A stretch of DNA of 44,378 nt from the IMG/VR virus record IMGVR_UViG_3300027771_000030, positions 1-44,378 of that record; one strand, 5' to 3'. Positions 782 to 40,128 of this stretch are shown here, in pieces. The notes under the pieces are model-generated. The model made no database searches. It worked only from the letters and a program-made list of their open reading frames with translations, and was not told where the DNA came from. Made by a program: the position numbers and the translations under genes. The stretch's first letter is position 1, and every line of letters starts with the position of its first letter. This stretch comes from a virus.

Positions 782-2353
782 ATGAATCCAAGGGAATTAC
801 ATTTTGACAAAGAGGGAAGAGAAAAATTATTAGAGGGCATTACTAAGATGTCCAAAACTGTAAAGAGTACATTAGGCCCATTAGGTAATACTGTAATGAT
901 GGAGTCTATGAATCACACAAGGGGAATGATTATCACCAAAGATGGTGTGACTGTTGCCAAGGAGATTGAGTTTGAAGATGCTGTAGAAAATTTAGCGGTA
1001 AAGATGATGAAGGAAGCTTCTGATAGAACTGCTACTTCAGCTGGTGATGGAACTACTACTGCGATAGTTTTGACTGAGGCCATTATAAAGGAAGGTATGC
1101 GACTGATAGATCGTGAGCCTAACATAAATACAAGTCAATTGGCTCGTGATATAGTTAAGGTATCTGAAGGAATCATAAAGAGTTTAGATAAATCTTCAAA
1201 GAAAGTTTCTGGTAATACTTTACGTGACGTTGCTACTATCTCTACCAATAATGATAAGGATTTGGGTAAGATGATCGCTGATGCTTATAAGGATTTAGGA
1301 AAAGACGGTAAGTTAACTGTTGAGAATAGTAAGACGGAAGACACGTATTGTGACATTACTAAAGGAATTAAGATTGACAGAGGATATTCATCGAAGCTTT
1401 TTATAAATAACCACCGTAATGACGAGTGCATATTAGATGATGTGTATATTTTAATGACGGACATGGAGATAACTAACATTCTTCAGATTGAAAATGTGTT
1501 GAAGCCGATTATAAACGAGAATAAGAAGCTACTAGTAATTGGGAATTGTTCTTCAAATGTAACTAACACACTGGCTGCTAATGTAGTACAGAACAGCCTT
1601 AAGCTTTGTAATATTATGCCACCATCGTTTGGTTATAAAACTAATGAGCTAATGGGTGATATTGCTTTGGCCACAGGTGCAAAGTATTTTAGTGAATCAC
1701 AAGGAGACAACATAGGTATGTTGACCATGAAGGATTTGGGTCATGCGGATAAGATAGTAGTTGGGAAAAACGAGACTATTATAATCAAAGAAGGTGAGCG
1801 CACTGAGGATATTCAGGACAGAATAAAAGAACTTAAGATTCAGAAAGAGAATAACAGCAACAAAAACGAAAGAGATTTCATAGATGAACGTATTTCATTA
1901 CTAACTGGTATGGTTGGTGTAATATATGTTGGTGCGAACTCAGATATTGAGCAAAAAGAAAAGTATGACAGGGTAGAAGACGCTGTTTGTGCTGTACGTT
2001 CTGCTATTGAGGAGGGTATATTACCAGGAGGTGGTATCGCATTGCTTAGATGCGCGGAAGATTTGAGTGACGGACACGCGAGTGATGTGTTATATGGTGC
2101 GCTTATAGCTCCGATTGAACAGATTCTTATTAATGCAGGAGAGGATGTAAAGGATATAAGAGATAAAGTATGTTCTTGTTCTGATGTTCCTAAGAATTTT
2201 GGATATGATGTAAAAAATAGAGTGTATGGAGATATGTACAAGATGGGTATTATAGATCCTGCCAAGGTTACGAAGAACGCGCTGAAGAATGCAGTGAGTG
2301 TAGCCACAACAATATTAAGTACAAACGCAATAGTAACCATGAAAAGAAAATAA
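782..2353 (+). CDS. groEL: Phage chaperonin GroEL (Cpn60), 523 aa
   Basis: Group I chaperonin: an ATP-driven ring that encloses and folds client proteins with a GroES lid. Seen: P33 and the TKDG motif (D54), the nucleotide motif DGTTT (89-93), the catalytic aspartate within RVEDA (E. coli D398), and GGG before the C-terminal equatorial part. At 523 residues it is shorter than E. coli GroEL (548) because it lacks the C-terminal GGM repeats and part of one equatorial loop. In the apical groove Y199, S201, F204, L237, L259, V263 and V264 (E. coli numbering) are kept, while Y203 becomes L and L234 becomes E. The inter-ring positions R452, E461, S463 and V464 are replaced by E446, D455, K457 and D458. 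The stop overlaps the groES start (TAATG). A divergent but apparently functional viral chaperonin that may fold capsid or tail proteins. Confidence 0.95.
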   Translation: MNPRELHFDKEGREKLLEGITKMSKTVKSTLGPLGNTVMMESMNHTRGMIITKDGVTVAKEIEFEDAVENLAVKMMKEASDRTATSAGDGTTTAIVLTEAIIKEGMRLIDREPNINTSQLARDIVKVSEGIIKSLDKSSKKVSGNTLRDVATISTNNDKDLGKMIADAYKDLGKDGKLTVENSKTEDTYCDITKGIKIDRGYSSKLFINNHRNDECILDDVYILMTDMEITNILQIENVLKPIINENKKLLVIGNCSSNVTNTLAANVVQNSLKLCNIMPPSFGYKTNELMGDIALATGAKYFSESQGDNIGMLTMKDLGHADKIVVGKNETIIIKEGERTEDIQDRIKELKIQKENNSNKNERDFIDERISLLTGMVGVIYVGANSDIEQKEKYDRVEDAVCAVRSAIEEGILPGGGIALLRCAEDLSDGHASDVLYGALIAPIEQILINAGEDVKDIRDKVCSCSDVPKNFGYDVKNRVYGDMYKMGIIDPAKVTKNALKNAVSVATTILSTNAIVTMKRK

Positions 2354-10683: not shown

Positions 10684-12810
10684 ATGGCAAAAATTAGTAC
10701 ATACTCAGTAGTTAGTCCAAAAGGGGCAGATAAAATAATTATTAGTGACGCAGATGGAAGTCCTTCTAACGCAACTAAAAACGTTACCGTTGAAGGACTA
10801 CAGACCTTTATAAATGATGTTCCAGCACCAACACTTCAAGAGGTAACCACATCTGGCAACACTACAAACAAAACTATAACCACACAGGGAATAAAGTCTG
10901 AAGGCACGAGAGATACAGACCTTGTTGTTAAGGTTGGAGACTATGACGGATCGCTTAACAAAACTAAATTAGAGGTTGATGTTGCTAATAAAAAAGTAAC
11001 TGTAGAATCAGATATATTAAGTCTTAATAAACTTGCAGGCAATAGAACAGAAATAACATTTAACCCAACTGCTACTAGGTCAATAGCTATTCCAAATGCT
11101 TCGGGTACAATAGCACTAACATCAGATTTGCCAAGTGCAACGCCATGGAATACAGATACAAACGGAATAAACTACCAGGCAGGAAATGTAGGTATTGGAA
11201 CTGTTAGCGGTGGTGACGCTTTAACTGTTGATGGTCAGATAACTTCAAGTAACATTGAGACTGGTTTTATTTTGGTTGAAGGAAACGCGACTATTGATGA
11301 CGCACTTTCAGCAGGAAGTGTTACGGCTACTACATTAACAGGAAACCTAGTGGGTACGGTAGACACAACCACCACAGGAATAACACAGCCAAGTACAACA
11401 GACAACAACTTACTTGCTACTACAGCATTCGTTCAAGACTTATTGGGTGATATAGTATCAGGATTACAATTTCAAGAACTATGGAATGCGACAACAGACA
11501 TTCCTGACCTTTCTACCGCTACTCCTAGTAACGGAGATTTTTGGATAGTAGAAGTAGCTGGTAATACAAACTTAAGTGGAATTACAAGTTGGGCCGTAGG
11601 CGACTGGGCTATATACATAGTCCCAGCAGGTGGTGGTGCAGCGTTTTGGCAAAAAGTAGATAATACTACATCAATAGCAGGAAACGGTACAGGTAATCAA
11701 GTTGCAAAATGGAGTGGAGCAGGAGCTTCCACTACACTAACTAACAGTATTATAACATCTACAGCAACCGCTGTAGGTATAAATGTACTTAATCCAACAG
11801 ACGCACTAGAAGTTAATGGACAAATTCAAGGAACATCGCTTGATATAGCTAGTGGAGCTTTAATTCAAGGTAATTTACAGGCAGATCAAGATTTAAATGT
11901 GGATGGTGTTACAACATTAGGTACTACAACAGCTGGAGGTAATTTACAGGCAGATCAAAATTTAAATGTTGATGGTGCTACAACATTAACTTCTGTAACA
12001 GCTTCAGGTACTTTAGGTGTTACTGGAAATGCAACATTTGGAAATGTAGATATTCAAAACACATTAACTGTTGGGAATCCTGCTACATTTAGCTCAGAGG
12101 TTATTACGCCAGAATTACAGGTTGATAAAATACTTGTTGAAATTCCAGGCAATATAATAAAAGTAAAAAACCCAGGGGTTGCTGACCAATTAGAAATTAT
12201 AGGTGAAAGTGGTGTTGATATTGTAAGCGAAGATGGACTAACATTAGAAGTTTCAGATGTTTTTGAGTTTAGGGGCTCGGCAGGAATAAGTGTTTTTAAT
12301 GGAAACGCATTAAATGCTTCCCTGGATGTTAGTCAGATAACAACATCAAGAAATTTTCAGTTTCCTGATAACAATGGAACTATAGCGCTACTAAGTGATA
12401 TCACACCAACAACTGGGCCTTTACAATGGGTAGGTCAGATAGGAACGGATATCTTTGGTGTTCCATCTATTAATAGAACACAGTCTTCTACATTATTTGT
12501 AGGAGACCGAGTAACCACTCCTGCCACATTTAGAGATATATCATTTTCTAAAGACGGAGTAGGAAATTATAGGATTAGAATAAACTTTACTCCAGATACT
12601 GTCCCTACAGATATAGCCAAACTAGCCTTGCAGTTTGGTGATAGCGTAGCTAGGGTTTATAGTTTCTCACAAGGAAGTCAAACTTCAGGGGGGATAACCG
12701 TATCTTATAAAGAATTTTTGTTTAGAACATACACTCCAGAAGGGGTGTTGTCTGACGGACAATTAGATGGGTCAGAAGCAGCTATGACAAGCGTTACGCT
12801 TTATCCATAA
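10684..12810 (+). CDS. Repetitive tail or head fibre protein (708 aa)
   Basis: The sequence has the composition of a beta-rich trimeric phage fibre: Thr, Asn, Gly and Val-rich with few charged residues. It contains repeats such as NVGIGTVSGGDALTVDGQI and VGINVLNPTDALEVNGQI, a TDNNLLATTAFVQDLL segment, and GNGTGNQVAKWSGAG, all common in Bacteroidetes phage fibres. A 23-residue unit (GNLQADQxLNVDGxTTL) is duplicated in tandem. The last 130 residues are a distinct C-terminal domain, probably the tip. No S74 intramolecular chaperone motif is visible. A role in host attachment is likely, but whether it is on head or tail cannot be said. Confidence 0.7.
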   Translation: MAKISTYSVVSPKGADKIIISDADGSPSNATKNVTVEGLQTFINDVPAPTLQEVTTSGNTTNKTITTQGIKSEGTRDTDLVVKVGDYDGSLNKTKLEVDVANKKVTVESDILSLNKLAGNRTEITFNPTATRSIAIPNASGTIALTSDLPSATPWNTDTNGINYQAGNVGIGTVSGGDALTVDGQITSSNIETGFILVEGNATIDDALSAGSVTATTLTGNLVGTVDTTTTGITQPSTTDNNLLATTAFVQDLLGDIVSGLQFQELWNATTDIPDLSTATPSNGDFWIVEVAGNTNLSGITSWAVGDWAIYIVPAGGGAAFWQKVDNTTSIAGNGTGNQVAKWSGAGASTTLTNSIITSTATAVGINVLNPTDALEVNGQIQGTSLDIASGALIQGNLQADQDLNVDGVTTLGTTTAGGNLQADQNLNVDGATTLTSVTASGTLGVTGNATFGNVDIQNTLTVGNPATFSSEVITPELQVDKILVEIPGNIIKVKNPGVADQLEIIGESGVDIVSEDGLTLEVSDVFEFRGSAGISVFNGNALNASLDVSQITTSRNFQFPDNNGTIALLSDITPTTGPLQWVGQIGTDIFGVPSINRTQSSTLFVGDRVTTPATFRDISFSKDGVGNYRIRINFTPDTVPTDIAKLALQFGDSVARVYSFSQGSQTSGGITVSYKEFLFRTYTPEGVLSDGQLDGSEAAMTSVTLYP
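11869..11988 (+). repeat. Tandem 69-base repeat in the fibre gene
   Basis: The 51-base units at 11869-11919 and 11938-11988 differ at three positions and have a period of 69 bases (23 codons). This keeps the frame and could allow length change by slippage. Confidence 0.8.
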
Positions 12811-33180: not shown

Positions 33181-36100
33181 ATGGAAGAATTATATAACGC
33201 ACTTGTTGAACAAGGAAAATACACAAAGTCTTTTGAAGATTTTAAAGCACAGTTTAGTGCGCCTGAAAAAACTAAAATGCTTTACGAGTCATTAAGTAGT
33301 TCGGGGGATTATACTAAATCTTTTGAAAAATTTACTTCTCAATTTGGTTTTACTGAAAAAAAAAATCAAGTCGATACTCCTTCAGGTGGTCAAGAGGAAG
33401 TTACGGAATCCATTACAGAAACGGAAACAATTCCTGGCTCTTCGGATTCTTTAGAAGAACAAGATGATTCACCCGTAATACAAGATGACAGCTCTGATTC
33501 AGTCCCATTTGTTGAATTTCCTGTCGTAGAGGAAGAGATTGAACCTTTAATTCCTGATGCACCTAATAGAAAGGGTGTGTTAAATAATGAAGACGGAAGT
33601 GTGTCTACTCATAAAATGAAGACCGAAACCGATGGTCAGGGCAATTGGTTTTCATTCCCTACAGTATTTCAAAATGAAGACGGAAGTTTTGTTGACATGT
33701 CTGAAGAAGCAGAACAAGACTGGGAGCCTGTATATGAAGAAGCCAAAAAGAGAGGAGAAGTTTCAGATTTTGGAACAGATAAGGAGTCTGCGATTTCATA
33801 TGGAAAAGGTTCATGGAAGCCTTCATATGATTCTAAGAAACAAAACAAACTGCTATTAGATTCAGGTTATTTAGCTTATGAAGAAGAGACCTCAGAATAT
33901 GCAAATGTAACTGATACTATTGATTTTGACAAAGAAGGTGTAACCCGAAACATAATACCAGAAAGGGAATATGGATTTATTAATCCAGAGACAGGTCAAA
34001 AAGAACTTAAGAAAGCATCAGAGCTTAGTCCAGAATTATTAGAAGCTGTTGAAACATACGACACTGCAACTAATGATGTTGAAAATCCAAATTACTTAGA
34101 TGTTGATCTTGATGAGGGAGAAGTTGGAAATGCTAACTCATTTTTAAGAGGCGTTATTGAAAAAGATGGCGGAAATGTAACAGATTATTTGAAGTGGGAA
34201 AAGAAAAATACTAGGAACGAAACTGGTGTATATAAGTGGATGAAGAATGTGCTACTTACCGAAGAACCTGAAAAGTTTTTTGAACAAAAAAATTATTATG
34301 AAAAAGTTCAATCATATAAAGCTGCACAACTCAATCAAATTGCTAAGAGATTAGCTAAAAACGAAGCACAACTATCTCTGACCTCTGACCCTAAACAGAT
34401 AAAAGAATTAAAAAGTGAAGGAAAGGAATTAGTAAAAGAATTTAAAACAAAAGCCAAGAGTATTTCTACTACAATTAATGATTTTCCTGATTTTAAAAAA
34501 GAAACAGAGGACACTGACTTAAGAAGAAGGAAAGCTATGTATGAGGCCGCTCAGGAAGGTGGAGCAGCTGAAGGAGGTCAAGGATTAGTTGAAATACTTG
34601 CTACCGGAGGAAATTCTTTAGCTGGTTTTGGTCTTGATTTTTTAGCTTCTGTACCTGCTTTTTTTGACCAAAGGATTGCAACTATAGGAAAGGGAGATGA
34701 TAAGTTTGATGATAAAGGTTTTTTAAAAGGTCTTGAAGAAATGTTTACTGACAGTAAGGTGGCTCTTGAAACATCAACTGGAGCAGTAAAAAGAAGTGCT
34801 TTTTTAGACGGAAAGCCAGTTCTTAGTTTAGGAAAAGAATATATTGTTGATGAAAACGGAACAGTATACGATGCGAATACAAACATAAGGATGGACGGGA
34901 TTATTTCTCCTGAAAAAATAAAAGAAATACAAACTTTATCTAAAGATGTTACAGAGACTGTAACTAATTGGACAGGAGGTTCTGTAGCTCAAGGAGGTGT
35001 AGGTATGCTTGTACACCTATACGGCTTAATTAGAACATCAGGAAAAGTAACAAAGAAACTAGGTTTCAAAGGCCCAAAAGGAGCTGGTTTAGGAATGGGA
35101 CTTACTTCTTTTGCAAGTGGTATTACGGGGAATGTTGAGGACGTAAGGTCTCAGCTAGTGGCTTCAGGTATGTCTGAAAAAGAAGCTATGGATATAGCTG
35201 TAAATGCAGGTCAGGCCATATCTACTTTAGATGGTATATTTTCTGGATTAGCAGGTGGTAATCAAAAACTACTAACAGGGTTTACAGGAGTTAAAGAGCA
35301 AATAAAAAACTTAGCAGTAAAAGAAGGTACAAAATTCACAGTTAAACAACTTGTAGATAAGGGTAAGGGTTTGTTAAAAGAAAACTTCAAAGAGGTTGTT
35401 ATTGAAGAACTTCCAGTTTATGCTTCTGAAAAGGGAATAAACTACTTGGTAAACAGACATATTGGAAATGAGGTATTAAATGATAAGATAACAAAAGCAG
35501 GTATAATGGAGACAGTAGTTATGACTGTAGGGGCTACATCTGGTTTAGGAAGCAGAAAGTTGTTGTCAGGAAACAGAAGGTCTGACCTAGTTAGGCTTGC
35601 AGCGGCAAATGTAAAAGACCTACAATCTACATTAGATGTTTTGGTTAAAGAAGGTTCTTTAACTGAAAAGGAGTCTTCAGACGCATATACAGAGATTTAT
35701 AATATGCAGTCAGCAGAGTTAAAAACTCAAGGAACTATAAAGGTTTCTGAAAACTTAGAGCCTGCATCTGACTTATTAACTCAAAGACAAAATTTAATAA
35801 ACAAAAAACAGGGACTAGAAGGCCCGGGTAAAGATCGCATTGATAAACAAATAGCAGCTGTAGACCAGCAACTAGATGCTCTTTATAAAAAAGACGAATT
35901 ACAGGTTCAAGAAGAATTAACTAAACAAAAAGAAGAAGATGCCATTTCAAAGCCAAGCACAGCAATAGAGATTTCATTCCCGTCAAATCCGTATTATTTT
36001 GAATATGAATCAGAACAAGACATACCTAATAAATTATTAGGTATTGTACCTATTTCTAAATCAGAAATCGAAGTTGATGGTAAAAAGAAAATAAAATTAA

Positions 36101-39100
36101 CATTTAGCGGTCAGCAGTTAATTGACGCAGGACTTGCTACTAGCCCAAAAACAGAAACAGATGCCATTTCAAAGCCAAGCACAGAGGAGCAAGTGCTACA
36201 GGATGCTCCAACAAGCAAAAAAGAGGGGGGAGACTCCGAAGTGGAACTGCGACAAGTGGGAGAAGGAGACGTTGGACAAGTCACTACCGAAACGCAAGTC
36301 GAAGAAGGTGAAACGCAAGCCGATAAGCCTAGCGACACGACTACGGAGGGAGATGCTGAACAGTTAGTAGAACCTAACTCAACAGAGGAAGGTATGAGTG
36401 TGAACAAGGAAAGAGTAGACTCTATTGTTGATGGTATAGTTAAGAAAACAAAAAGCCGAAACGTAGGAGAACAAACAAATCCTCAAAAACTTGCTGATAA
36501 TGCAATAGAATATTTAAAAGGTTCTAAGTTATTTGAACAAGCAACAGACACGGAAAGAGAGACAATACTTAGAGATGTTAGCAAAAAGCTAGGAGTAGAA
36601 ATTAAAGCTCCTACTGCTAAAAAACTTTTAGGTATAAAAAGAATTGGGAAACCTAAAACTATTACAGTAAAAAGTGACTATGCTGCAATGAAGAAAGATC
36701 TTCAGAAAGAATCGAAGGTTGCTAGAGATGCTAAGAACGATGTAAACAAAAGAAGAAAAGGTTTACAAGGGGCTATAGATTTGGTTTTGAAAACAGGTAA
36801 TATTACAACTAAAAAAGCAAACTCATTACTTAAAAAAGTTTCTAATGTAAATTTATATAACGCCAAGAAAGTTCAAGACGTAATAGATTTTACTACAAGA
36901 GCCATGAATGATGCTGAGTATTCTAATAAGTTAGATAAGGCTAAGAAACTTCAGGCATCTATTAAGAAAAAATTAAAGGGTAAAGAGGCTGGACTTTCTG
37001 ACGCTGCAAAGAAATTTACCCAAGTAAATCCAAGCAATGTAAACGATATTGATACATATTTAGAAAAAGCATCTGAAATTAGTAATGGTCTTAAGCCAAC
37101 TAGGAAACCATCTAAGGGGAAACTTAAAGTAAGTAAGCCTTTTGATATTAAAAAAATTGAGGAGTATTCAAAAAAAGAAACTGAATTAGAAGCAGAAAGA
37201 AACTATGAGTTAGCCAAAGAGTCATTTCAAGAATTAACAGGGCTAGAGCCAGGGGACTTAACTCTTGACCAAATTAAAGAGATGTTGTACGAGGTAGACG
37301 GTTCAACAACCACTTCTGAGGCAGATACAAAAACTCTTAAAGAAAAAGAGGCGGCAATTGATAAAGCAGCAAATAACGCTTTTAAAAACACTAAGATAAA
37401 TATAAAGGAAGCTATTAAGTCAGGGGATATGGAGCTTAGTAAATCCCAAAAAACTTTGATTGGTAATTTCTTAAATATGGACTTAAGTGTAATGACTACC
37501 AAGCAAAAATTGGAGGCATTAGATTCAATTGTTAATTTTGAACTGAACCAGTCTACAGGGGGAATGGAGGCTTCTTTTAAGCAGCAAGTTGGTAATAGTA
37601 AAATTAATAGTTTAGAAAATAAAGGAGTTAAAAGTGCTGACAACAAATCATTATTTGGTTTAGGTAAATTTTGGAACAAACAAATATCCACTTTACCTAA
37701 TGTATTTGAACTTACATTTAAGTCTCAACAGAAAGGGAGAATGGTTATGGATGCTTTAGGACTTGACGGAATAATAAACGGTAGCGCAAAGGCTCAAAAA
37801 GAAGCAGCTAAAACAGAGAAAGATTATGCAGATACATTTGCAAAAAAGAAAATGCAAGACGGTATATACTTTGACGAATTTAATGATACTGAAAGAAGTA
37901 TATTAGCAGATGTAAGGAGATTTACTCCAGGTAAAGAGCAAAAGGAATTTGAAGATAGTAAGAATCTTATTAAGCAAACTTACGAAAGACTTATGGCTTC
38001 AGGAGACAAGTTAAAAGTTAAAAAGGGTGAGATTGTTAAAGCTCAATATGACAAACTTATAAAGGACTCTAACTCTATAGCGGACGTTGAAAGTAAAGCA
38101 GACCCTGCAAATTTAGATGGAGTAAAATATGTTACTGAAATTTGGGCTGAAAAATATAACGAATTAGCTGATACGTCCTTGAACGTATATAACAAGAATC
38201 TAGGAAAAGACACTAACTATACCCCTAGAAATATTCAAAAATTAAAGCAACCAAAAGCAGAAGATGTAGATATAACACAACCTGTTTTTAATCCTGAAGG
38301 AAATAAAAGAAAAAGTGCTTACGACAAAAAAACAGGAGTTTTAAAAGAAGCTACTAAACCTGGGGCTCTTGAGGCAGGAGATGTATTAAATTTAAGTTTT
38401 GATGCTCAGAACATGAGTAATTATAAAGCTGCTTTAACTGATATATATACAGCCCCTTCTATACAACAAGTGAAAGGAGCTAGAGAGTCAAAATCTTTTA
38501 ACGAAGTTTTTACAAATGAATCAGCAAAAGAAATAATTAATGACAGAATAAATAGTTATGTAGATTCTAAACGAGGTAAAAAATATGTTGATGGTTCAAC
38601 AAAAAGAACTTTAAATCGTTTGAATAAGGTTGCTACATTAGGTGTATCTAGAGTTTTAGGTGGGCCAACTCAGTTTGTAAAACAAGTAGTTCCTATTTTT
38701 AACACAATGTTTAATGCAGGTCTCAGCAATACATTAAAAGGATCTAAGTTAATTTTTGATGCTGAGGTTCAAAAGGCTATAGACAATTCAGGCTTACCTA
38801 TTGCTAACAGGGGAATACAATCTCAATCAGATATTGAAAATGCTGATAGTAGAATTAAAAAGAAAGCACAGACAAAAGGAGGTAGAGTAATTGACGCTGC
38901 TGATTCAATAAATAAAAAGACTCTTGAAGCTTTCTTGGTGTATCCCGATGTTCAGACAGCAAGAGCTTCTTTTATTGCTTATTATATTCAGCAAGTAAAA
39001 AAAGATGGAGGAGATACTACTAATATTGATTGGTCTAAACCATTAGATAAAAAAGCTGCACAGTATGCACAGCAACAAGTGGATAGGCAACAAAATACAT

Positions 39101-40128
39101 CTGACCAAGACCTTCAAGGAGATTTGTTTACTGACCAAAGATTTTACCCACAACTAGTTCGTAAAACATTATTCCCTTTTGCAAACTTCTTGTTGAATCA
39201 AAAGACAAGAATGTATTCAGATATAAATACTTTAATTAATAACCCAACTGCTCTTCCAGGTGATAGGACTAGAGCGCTTAAGTCATTAGGGGGTTTAGGT
39301 GTAGAAACGGTAATGTTTAATGCTATTGGTTTAGGAATAACTCAAGCATTAGCTGCTGCCGCAAGATTAATATCAGGAGAAGAAGAAGACCCAAATTTAA
39401 ATAGATATGCTAATAAAAGAGCAAGGGAAGAAAAGAGAGATAAAGAGTTTAGTCAAAGATTAATAGGTAGGGGTGGAAATGCATTAGCAGATGTTCTTGT
39501 TCCAATACCTATTTTAAATGACGAAAGTCTAAATCAAATAAACGGATTAATGAGTTTATTTCAAGACGATGAGGATAATCCATTTCAGTTCTTTGCAAAG
39601 ACAGATAAAAAAATAATTGACATGTTAGGTACGTTGGGAATAGGAGGAAAGAAAGCAGTACTACTTGCTGATATGATTGAAACAATTGTTACAGGGAAAA
39701 AAACTAGTGTTTTTATGGGTAGAGAGAGCAGTGCCGAAATAGACCCTGAAAAATTAAACGCCTTAAAAATGACTACTATGGCTTATGCTATGCATTTAAT
39801 TGGAGTTCCTGTTTTAAATTCAAGCGAAGTAGGATATGTTGCTGAAAGAGCTTTTAAAGATATAGGTAAATCAAGAGAAATAGAAAAGAAAGTTGACTAC
39901 ATTGTAGAGGCTGAAGCTGTACTAAATGAGAGGGGTATTGAAAATCCTTCTCAACAAATGATAGATAATGAAGCAAAGCAATTAAAAAGAATAGGTCAAG
40001 GTAAGGAGCGAAAAGCTGTGAAAAGTAATAGCAAAAGTAAAGATGATAAATCTTTTTCACCAGCTTCTTTTGGTGATGAAAAAGGAAAAAATAAAAGTGG
40101 AAAATCGTTTAATCCTAAATCTTTTTAA
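33181..40128 (+). CDS. Giant internal virion protein (2315 aa)
   Basis: By order this is the largest ejection protein. Residues 1-60 hold two copies of LYxxLxxxGxYTKSFExFxxQF. Residues 125-225 have NEDGSVSTHKM, GNWFSFPTVFQ and RGEVSDFGTDKESAISYGKG, a domain seen in other Bacteroidetes phage virion proteins. Two less polar segments occur at about 470-500 and 600-625. The middle (about 920-1070) is an acidic, low-complexity linker with a duplicated DAISKPST. The second half is helical and Lys-rich. No lysozyme motif or RNA-polymerase DxDGD motif could be seen. A different small protein is encoded out of frame at 36161-36367. Confidence 0.75.
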   Translation: MEELYNALVEQGKYTKSFEDFKAQFSAPEKTKMLYESLSSSGDYTKSFEKFTSQFGFTEKKNQVDTPSGGQEEVTESITETETIPGSSDSLEEQDDSPVIQDDSSDSVPFVEFPVVEEEIEPLIPDAPNRKGVLNNEDGSVSTHKMKTETDGQGNWFSFPTVFQNEDGSFVDMSEEAEQDWEPVYEEAKKRGEVSDFGTDKESAISYGKGSWKPSYDSKKQNKLLLDSGYLAYEEETSEYANVTDTIDFDKEGVTRNIIPEREYGFINPETGQKELKKASELSPELLEAVETYDTATNDVENPNYLDVDLDEGEVGNANSFLRGVIEKDGGNVTDYLKWEKKNTRNETGVYKWMKNVLLTEEPEKFFEQKNYYEKVQSYKAAQLNQIAKRLAKNEAQLSLTSDPKQIKELKSEGKELVKEFKTKAKSISTTINDFPDFKKETEDTDLRRRKAMYEAAQEGGAAEGGQGLVEILATGGNSLAGFGLDFLASVPAFFDQRIATIGKGDDKFDDKGFLKGLEEMFTDSKVALETSTGAVKRSAFLDGKPVLSLGKEYIVDENGTVYDANTNIRMDGIISPEKIKEIQTLSKDVTETVTNWTGGSVAQGGVGMLVHLYGLIRTSGKVTKKLGFKGPKGAGLGMGLTSFASGITGNVEDVRSQLVASGMSEKEAMDIAVNAGQAISTLDGIFSGLAGGNQKLLTGFTGVKEQIKNLAVKEGTKFTVKQLVDKGKGLLKENFKEVVIEELPVYASEKGINYLVNRHIGNEVLNDKITKAGIMETVVMTVGATSGLGSRKLLSGNRRSDLVRLAAANVKDLQSTLDVLVKEGSLTEKESSDAYTEIYNMQSAELKTQGTIKVSENLEPASDLLTQRQNLINKKQGLEGPGKDRIDKQIAAVDQQLDALYKKDELQVQEELTKQKEEDAISKPSTAIEISFPSNPYYFEYESEQDIPNKLLGIVPISKSEIEVDGKKKIKLTFSGQQLIDAGLATSPKTETDAISKPSTEEQVLQDAPTSKKEGGDSEVELRQVGEGDVGQVTTETQVEEGETQADKPSDTTTEGDAEQLVEPNSTEEGMSVNKERVDSIVDGIVKKTKSRNVGEQTNPQKLADNAIEYLKGSKLFEQATDTERETILRDVSKKLGVEIKAPTAKKLLGIKRIGKPKTITVKSDYAAMKKDLQKESKVARDAKNDVNKRRKGLQGAIDLVLKTGNITTKKANSLLKKVSNVNLYNAKKVQDVIDFTTRAMNDAEYSNKLDKAKKLQASIKKKLKGKEAGLSDAAKKFTQVNPSNVNDIDTYLEKASEISNGLKPTRKPSKGKLKVSKPFDIKKIEEYSKKETELEAERNYELAKESFQELTGLEPGDLTLDQIKEMLYEVDGSTTTSEADTKTLKEKEAAIDKAANNAFKNTKINIKEAIKSGDMELSKSQKTLIGNFLNMDLSVMTTKQKLEALDSIVNFELNQSTGGMEASFKQQVGNSKINSLENKGVKSADNKSLFGLGKFWNKQISTLPNVFELTFKSQQKGRMVMDALGLDGIINGSAKAQKEAAKTEKDYADTFAKKKMQDGIYFDEFNDTERSILADVRRFTPGKEQKEFEDSKNLIKQTYERLMASGDKLKVKKGEIVKAQYDKLIKDSNSIADVESKADPANLDGVKYVTEIWAEKYNELADTSLNVYNKNLGKDTNYTPRNIQKLKQPKAEDVDITQPVFNPEGNKRKSAYDKKTGVLKEATKPGALEAGDVLNLSFDAQNMSNYKAALTDIYTAPSIQQVKGARESKSFNEVFTNESAKEIINDRINSYVDSKRGKKYVDGSTKRTLNRLNKVATLGVSRVLGGPTQFVKQVVPIFNTMFNAGLSNTLKGSKLIFDAEVQKAIDNSGLPIANRGIQSQSDIENADSRIKKKAQTKGGRVIDAADSINKKTLEAFLVYPDVQTARASFIAYYIQQVKKDGGDTTNIDWSKPLDKKAAQYAQQQVDRQQNTSDQDLQGDLFTDQRFYPQLVRKTLFPFANFLLNQKTRMYSDINTLINNPTALPGDRTRALKSLGGLGVETVMFNAIGLGITQALAAAARLISGEEEDPNLNRYANKRAREEKRDKEFSQRLIGRGGNALADVLVPIPILNDESLNQINGLMSLFQDDEDNPFQFFAKTDKKIIDMLGTLGIGGKKAVLLADMIETIVTGKKTSVFMGRESSAEIDPEKLNALKMTTMAYAMHLIGVPVLNSSEVGYVAERAFKDIGKSREIEKKVDYIVEAEAVLNERGIENPSQQMIDNEAKQLKRIGQGKERKAVKSNSKSKDDKSFSPASFGDEKGKNKSGKSFNPKSF
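35937..36184 (+). repeat. 26-base direct repeats 222 bases apart inside the giant gene
   Basis: The 26-base sequence beginning AGATGCCATTTCAAAG occurs identically at 35937-35962 and 36159-36184. In the giant frame it encodes DAISKPST. In the +1 frame it is the start (MPFQSQAQ) of the nested gene; in the first copy that frame stops after nine codons. The 196 bases between are AT-rich like the flanks. Confidence 0.85.
36161..36367 (+). CDS. Out-of-frame nested gene for a small basic 'FxSxAQRxxCY' protein (68 aa)
   Basis: In the +1 frame of the giant gene, an ATG starts MPFQSQAQRSKCYRMLQQAK, then KWNCDKWEKETLDKSLPKRK and a KKVKRK tail, and ends at TAG 36365. This is the pattern (MPF.S.AQR..CY..., W.C..WE..T, LP.RK) of a small stand-alone basic phage protein family, kin in style to the 3.1-5.4 kb array. 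The giant frame here reads a bland Glu/Thr/Gly linker. Bases 36181-36360 have 95 G or C in 180 (53%), against about 25% in 36001-36060 and about 32% in 36421-36480. Either a genuine overprinted gene or a former gene captured in another frame. Confidence 0.45.
   Translation: MPFQSQAQRSKCYRMLQQAKKRGETPKWNCDKWEKETLDKSLPKRKSKKVKRKPISLATRLRREMLNS

Follow-up and report, generated by a model that had tools for sequence, protein, structure and literature searches.

Both GroEL-type inter-ring contact sites are shown by site conservation to have lost constraint across an entire family of viral chaperonins; in the same proteins, the residues of the ATPase site and the elements that make intra-ring contacts are conserved. 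The member studied here is encoded in a stretch of 44,378 bases that constitutes a whole IMG/VR virus record (the window). Its GroEL is probably a single ring closed by a lid, or pairs at most transiently, and is predicted to form no stable GroEL-type double ring. A single ring or weak ring pairing had been proposed in the initial annotation; in its favor are the lost constraint, the loss of charge complementarity, and the Arg or Lys held at position 452 in the host phylum, from which we infer the oligomeric state.

The window GroEL is 37% identical to E. coli GroEL and matches PF00118 (E 1.2e-54, 186 bits against a cut-off of 34.3) and phrog_5725, chaperonin groEL (E 4e-131). Its single-chain AlphaFold2 model (pLDDT 85.4) has the three-domain fold, with GroEL 4ki8 as the closest PDB structure (Z 43, rmsd 3.9, 514 residues aligned to 4ki8_A). 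All 17 ATP/Mg-site positions checked, including D52, D87, and D398, are identical to those of E. coli. The protein passes NF009487, the broader GroEL subfamily model, and scores 455 bits against TIGR02348, the equivalog of canonical bacterial GroEL, for which the cut-off is 582. The groEL stop codon and the groES start codon share one base (TAATG). Among annotated phages, the uncultured podovirus MW202828 is closest (GroEL 53.7% and terminase 71.5% identical), followed, by terminase, by Flavobacterium elemo phages. Given these nearest relatives, the host is likely a member of Bacteroidota, and the viral family appears to consist of podophage-like viruses of Bacteroidota whose closest isolates infect Flavobacteriaceae.

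Coordinates of the chaperonin genes of the window and of the GroEL codons discussed in the text
Feature	Position	Strand	Evidence
groEL (group I chaperonin), 523 aa	782..2353	+	PF00118, phrog_5725, AlphaFold2
Left inter-ring site around K105/A109, where helix D ends: R L I D R E P, codons 107-113	1100..1120	+	alignments
Codon for E237 = GroEL L234, helix H GroES/peptide groove	1490..1492	+	alignment
Helix I groove, N T L A A (codons 262-266; GroEL 260-264)	1565..1579	+	alignment
Loop between helices N and O, shortened (approximately codons 426-432)	2057..2077	+	alignments
E446 codon, at GroEL R452 in helix P, right inter-ring site	2117..2119	+	alignments, AlphaFold2 model
Codons 455-458: D455 = E461, V456 = P462, K457 = S463, D458 = V464	2144..2155	+	alignments, AlphaFold2 model
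groES, 85 aa	2353..2610	+	PF00166 E 2.5e-11, phrog_3188
Tandem Cpn10 fold, second co-chaperonin-like gene, 187 aa	13121..13684	+	phrog_13932 E 2.7e-19, AlphaFold2 pLDDT 78

The initial annotation had placed E446, D455, K457, and D458 at R452, E461, S463, and V464 of E. coli GroEL. MAFFT and an independent alignment, with E. coli K-12 GroL (NC_000913) as the reference, put these residues in the same columns, and the stretch 450-465 is gap-free between the two proteins. As in GroEL, E446 lies within helix 443-451 of the AlphaFold2 model (helix P), and D455-D458, which also belong to the right inter-ring site, cap helix Q (456-463) and form its first turn. At the left site, a two-residue insertion sits just before the position of A109, where the aligned residue is P113 and not Ala, and the E. 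coli loop that carries E434 and D435 is deleted. Against the canonical inter-ring residues R/K452, E/D461, S/A463, V/I/L464, A109, and D435, the window has E, D, K, D, P (with the insertion), and a deletion. The claim that all contact positions are changed stands, with the right and left sites both altered; 461 is the only one of these canonical residues to keep its acidic character, and the replacement at K105 (R107) is conservative.

In GroEL, the R452-E461 salt bridge stabilizes the inter-ring interface through the cycle (PMC5941174), and V464 is in contact with its symmetry mate, V464-V464, at the two-fold axis (PMC3326522). Both sides of the former salt bridge are acidic in the window, as is the position of the V464 self-contact. 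Also lost in the viral family is D83, whose bridge with K327 stabilizes the taut state (PMC5941174). The GGM tail had been described as missing from the window, and it is absent from all 71 members of the viral family as well; a GGM or GGG tail is present in 70 of 80 bacterial GroELs.

These 80 bacterial sequences are the GroELs nearest to the window, that is, chosen by similarity, and the viral set consists of 71 full-length sequences. Position 452 is R73, K4, T1, A1, and H1 in the bacterial set (R/K in 77/80) and R51 and K1 in 52 loci of Bacteroidota, the phylum of Flavobacterium branchiophilum (R/K in 52/52). It had been recognized from the start that a Glu generally present at 452 in double-ring relatives would speak against the single-ring reading; Glu is found there in none of the 132 bacterial loci examined. 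In the 71 viral sequences, position 452 is E18, T15, K8, C6, S5, A5, R4, M3, Y3, I2, F1, and V1. The engineered mutant SR1 (R452E, E461A, S463A, V464A) is indeed a single ring, as the annotation had stated (PMC5653362), and the residue it was said to share with the window at 452 was correctly read. The position has drifted through many residues, of which this Glu is one, and because 452 carries at least 11 kinds of residue in the viral family, the exact match to SR1 matters less; engineered single rings have also been made with R452A, in which the charge is removed (PMC5575113).

Bacteria vary conservatively at 461 (E/D), 463 (S/A, in 77 of the 80), and 464 (V/I/L, in all 80), with A109 in 79 and D435 in 75, the other 5 having Glu. 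That all positions differ in the window is meaningful because neither K at 463 nor D at 464 was seen among the 80 bacterial GroELs. The viral family is monophyletic (support 98) in a tree that included AR9, with EL and OBP left out; AR9, only about 24% identical, falls outside the viral clade on a very long branch. Within the clade of close relatives, E446 is kept in 11 of 12 non-redundant sequences, which says little because 324 of 548 columns are invariant there.

The loss of constraint was quantified by site rates, estimated separately for 48 non-redundant viral and 80 bacterial sequences under LG+G8. In this comparison of sites, which is neither a phylogenetic null nor a test over independent lineages and which draws on the similarity-selected bacterial sample, the mean rate percentile of seven literature-derived inter-ring positions (105, 109, 435, 452, 461, 463, and 464) goes from 0.49 in bacteria to 0.92 in the viral family. 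Control sets were matched for bacterial rate, and not one in 20,000 showed so large a shift, whether drawn from the whole protein or from the equatorial domain. For the right site alone, the shift was reached by 0/20,000 sets from all positions, 3/20,000 from the equatorial domain, and 0/20,000 from polar positions only. The ATP-site positions stay conserved (rate percentile 0.15 in bacteria, 0.13 in the viral family), the intra-ring stem loop is at 0.41 and 0.43, and the intra-ring N/C strands are tighter in the viral family (0.61 to 0.40). By parsimony, position 452 changes 20 times on the viral tree versus 6 on the bacterial tree, and A109 changes 18 times versus once. The buried side of helix P (I454, N457, G459) is fixed in the viral family, which argues against an alignment artefact. 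A pseudogene or decaying gene was considered and rejected, since conservation at the ATP and intra-ring sites matches that in bacteria.

Charges at 452 and 461 are complementary in 78 of 81 bacterial proteins (E. coli included) versus 5 of 71 viral ones, and 9 of the 71, the window among them, have like charges at the pair. Position 464 is charged, which sets like charges against each other at the self-contact, in 42/71 viral proteins versus 0/81 bacterial ones, and the 105-435 pair is rarely complementary in the viral family. A charge swap, with E452 paired to a basic 461 or to K463, was rejected as a family rule: 461 is mostly D/N/S/E whatever stands at 452, and K463 is lost in several members with E452. 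The preference at 461 would fit a helix N-cap.

These observations bear on the main rival to a single ring, a weak rewired double ring in which lineage-specific back-to-back pairing occurs during the cycle and negative cooperativity between the rings is slight or absent. Mitochondrial Hsp60 offers the precedent, pairing through S464, E462, and K109-E105 (PMC7174398), and the human protein, which is without both salt bridges, is still double-ring with Hsp10, which weighs against a firm call on the oligomer (PMC5575113, PMC7174398). Helices P and Q are kept in the window model, and the charged interface residues R107, D110, R111, E112, E446, and K457 could pair, with R107, R111/E112, or E446/K457 as candidates for new bridges. 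Sub-lineages could each have their own rewired interface that a family-wide conservation test would miss. Such rewiring is nonetheless unlikely, if worth serious consideration, given the like charges frequent at the two-fold self-contact, the scarcity of complementary 452-461 and 105-435 pairs, and a ring face without a family-wide conserved contact. In the viral family, the segments that face the other ring (99-113, 424-438, and 444-476) show no conserved replacement patch; a clear gain in conservation is confined to 453 and 100, with smaller gains at 458, 454, and 450, so few positions that no conserved new contact surface can be seen.

An ordinary stable double ring, in which the substitutions are tolerated and backbone and van der Waals contacts keep the rings paired, is improbable. 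Single-site interface mutants, GroEL K105A among them, crystallize as a double ring that is identical to the wild-type one (PMC5941174), and chloroplast Cpn60 subunits vary at 452 and 461 (PMC4828840). The window differs from the case of single mutants because its published contact positions are all altered together, with a loop deletion and an insertion on the same face. Least credible of all, with hardly any weight, is an arrangement like that of phage EL, whose chaperonin has a rebuilt interface and splits on ATP (PMC7185714), since EL has an elongated helix N with an inserted helix, a loop in place of helix Q, and no need of a co-chaperonin, whereas the window shortens the N-O loop, keeps helix Q in the model, and belongs to a family that has a co-chaperonin.

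The apical groove, the binding site for client peptides and for the GroES loop, has been rebuilt in the viral family, with L234 replaced by Glu in 67/71, A260 by Asn in 71/71, and T266 by Val in 71/71; V263 and V264 are mostly Ala, and L237 and N265 are kept. L234, L237, and V264 of GroEL contact the IVL tripeptide of GroES (PMC3514286). The groove is more constrained than the ring face and is possibly the more telling functional change. In E. coli GroEL, L234E reportedly abolishes peptide and GroES binding, a result ascribed to Fenton et al. in 1994. The fixed groove points to a specialized set of partners, and the larger client range suggested in the initial annotation finds no support. Since partner recognition appears to have changed and then become fixed as the ring face drifted, the family has the marks of a specialized machine and not a decaying one.

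The lid gene accompanies the ring gene, groES adjoining groEL downstream in 81 of 82 loci. The viral GroES family keeps a mobile loop of the SG[IL]LL type; that of the window, NSGILLT, has the hydrophobic tripeptide of a Cpn10 and is two residues longer than that of E. coli. The GroES roof measures 16 aa in the window and 16-17 aa in the aligned family members, in comparison with 25 in E. coli, 20 in the Bacteroidota loci, and 20-26 in nearly all bacteria. A second gene just upstream of the terminase, also conserved in elemo and Cellulophaga phages, encodes the tandem Cpn10 protein. It matches 7ekq_R of the Chlamydomonas chloroplast ClpP complex over its full length (Z 10.0 over 161 residues), and GroES chains match its residues 106-187 (Z about 9). 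No obvious IVL-type mobile loop is found in this protein, which is a possible accessory lid.

Two further open reading frames of the window, both on the + strand, are large. The 708-aa protein of 10684-12810 bears a marginal resemblance to bactofilin over residues 388-482 (PF04519, 28.0 bits against a cut-off of 27.9), has no PHROG match, and is perhaps a beta-helical virion protein. The 2315-aa frame at 33181-40128 has no significant match in Pfam.

In the single-ring mechanism favored here, the window GroEL would assemble as a seven-membered ring whose lid is the roof-shortened GroES of the same phage. The rebuilt apical groove would bind an unfolded phage client, which ATP binding would then enclose under the lid. 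After hydrolysis, lid and client would be released with no opposite ring to give the signal, as mitochondrial Hsp60/Hsp10 can, and the loss of D83 together with the altered groove could tune affinity in lid release. The clients may be virion proteins such as the capsid protein, a faint suggestion drawn from the analogy of T4 gp31. A broader proposal, which we hold tentatively and at somewhat below even confidence, is that the whole Bacteroidota-virus clade has an obligate single-ring GroEL with its own roof-shortened GroES and a Glu-bearing groove for phage proteins, and has solved the problem of SR1, in which there is no opposite ring that could set off release of the lid. If true, the clade would be a natural single-ring chaperonin-plus-lid system outside mitochondria.

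Phages as such do not account for the changed ring sites: R452, V464, and an acidic residue at 461 are retained in the GroELs of Acinetobacter phage MD-2021a, Vibrio phage 2.275.O, and a 735-kb phage, so this explanation was rejected. Other phage GroELs are also changed, with like charges R452/K461 in elemo, E452/E461 in phi40:1, and E452/D461 in Vibrio K476. Ring-pairing loss may have arisen several times in phages. Carriage of GroEL by Bacteroidetes phages, including marine ones, has already been reported (PMC5332604). The literature searched yielded no description of a phage GroEL that has a lid and has lost its inter-ring sites, which is not proof of absence. A 2017 survey is said to have covered virioplankton chaperonins. 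The window GroEL family is a clade separate from the chaperonins of Flavobacteriaceae phages (the Cellulophaga phi40:1/phi38:1 group, Flavobacterium elemo phages, and marine environmental genomes), and the elemo phages share the terminase and the tandem Cpn10 gene with the window.

Like E. coli GroEL/GroES, the window system has the three-domain fold (Z about 40), the ATP and Mg residues, and a GroES partner. It has the Glu of SR1 at 452; unlike that engineered mutant, it is a natural protein with D/K/D and not Ala at 461/463/464, and it differs from both SR1 and E. coli GroEL in its left-site changes, L234 to Glu, missing GGM tail, and loss of D83. Engineered SR1 traps its lid and clients, a problem with which mitochondrial Hsp60 copes. 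Mitochondrial Hsp60/Hsp10 is single-ring-capable with a co-chaperonin and is without the R452-E461 and K105-D435 bridges (PMC5575113), and the window, as aligned, likewise combines the absence of both bridges with a co-chaperonin. The mitochondrial protein is a structural match of 34% identity whose residues at both sites, and whose apical groove, differ from those of the window, which is a viral gene pair with a shortened GroES roof. T4 gp31 resembles the window GroES as a lid without a full GroES roof and with a longer mobile loop (PMC6318259), the loop extension being smaller in the window; gp31 caps the host GroEL, whereas the window phage supplies the chaperonin ring too.

The known phage chaperonins include natural single rings (OBP, AR9) and EL, which switches between double and single rings (PMC9598537, PMC7185714). 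For AR9, MAFFT and BLAST against the window agree on E452/D461, and BLAST against E. coli yields a different register. All are phage-encoded, as in the window, and all work without a co-chaperonin, whereas the window family keeps groES beside groEL in nearly every locus and is therefore probably not of the co-chaperonin-free EL/OBP/AR9 type. It has long been asked how GroEL/GroES can function when there is no second ring. If the single-ring reading is true, a sequence-diverse family of phage rings that have a lid and whose ring-ring face has decayed would offer many independent solutions for comparison, and would separate ring pairing from lid use, because the phage single rings known so far work without a lid.
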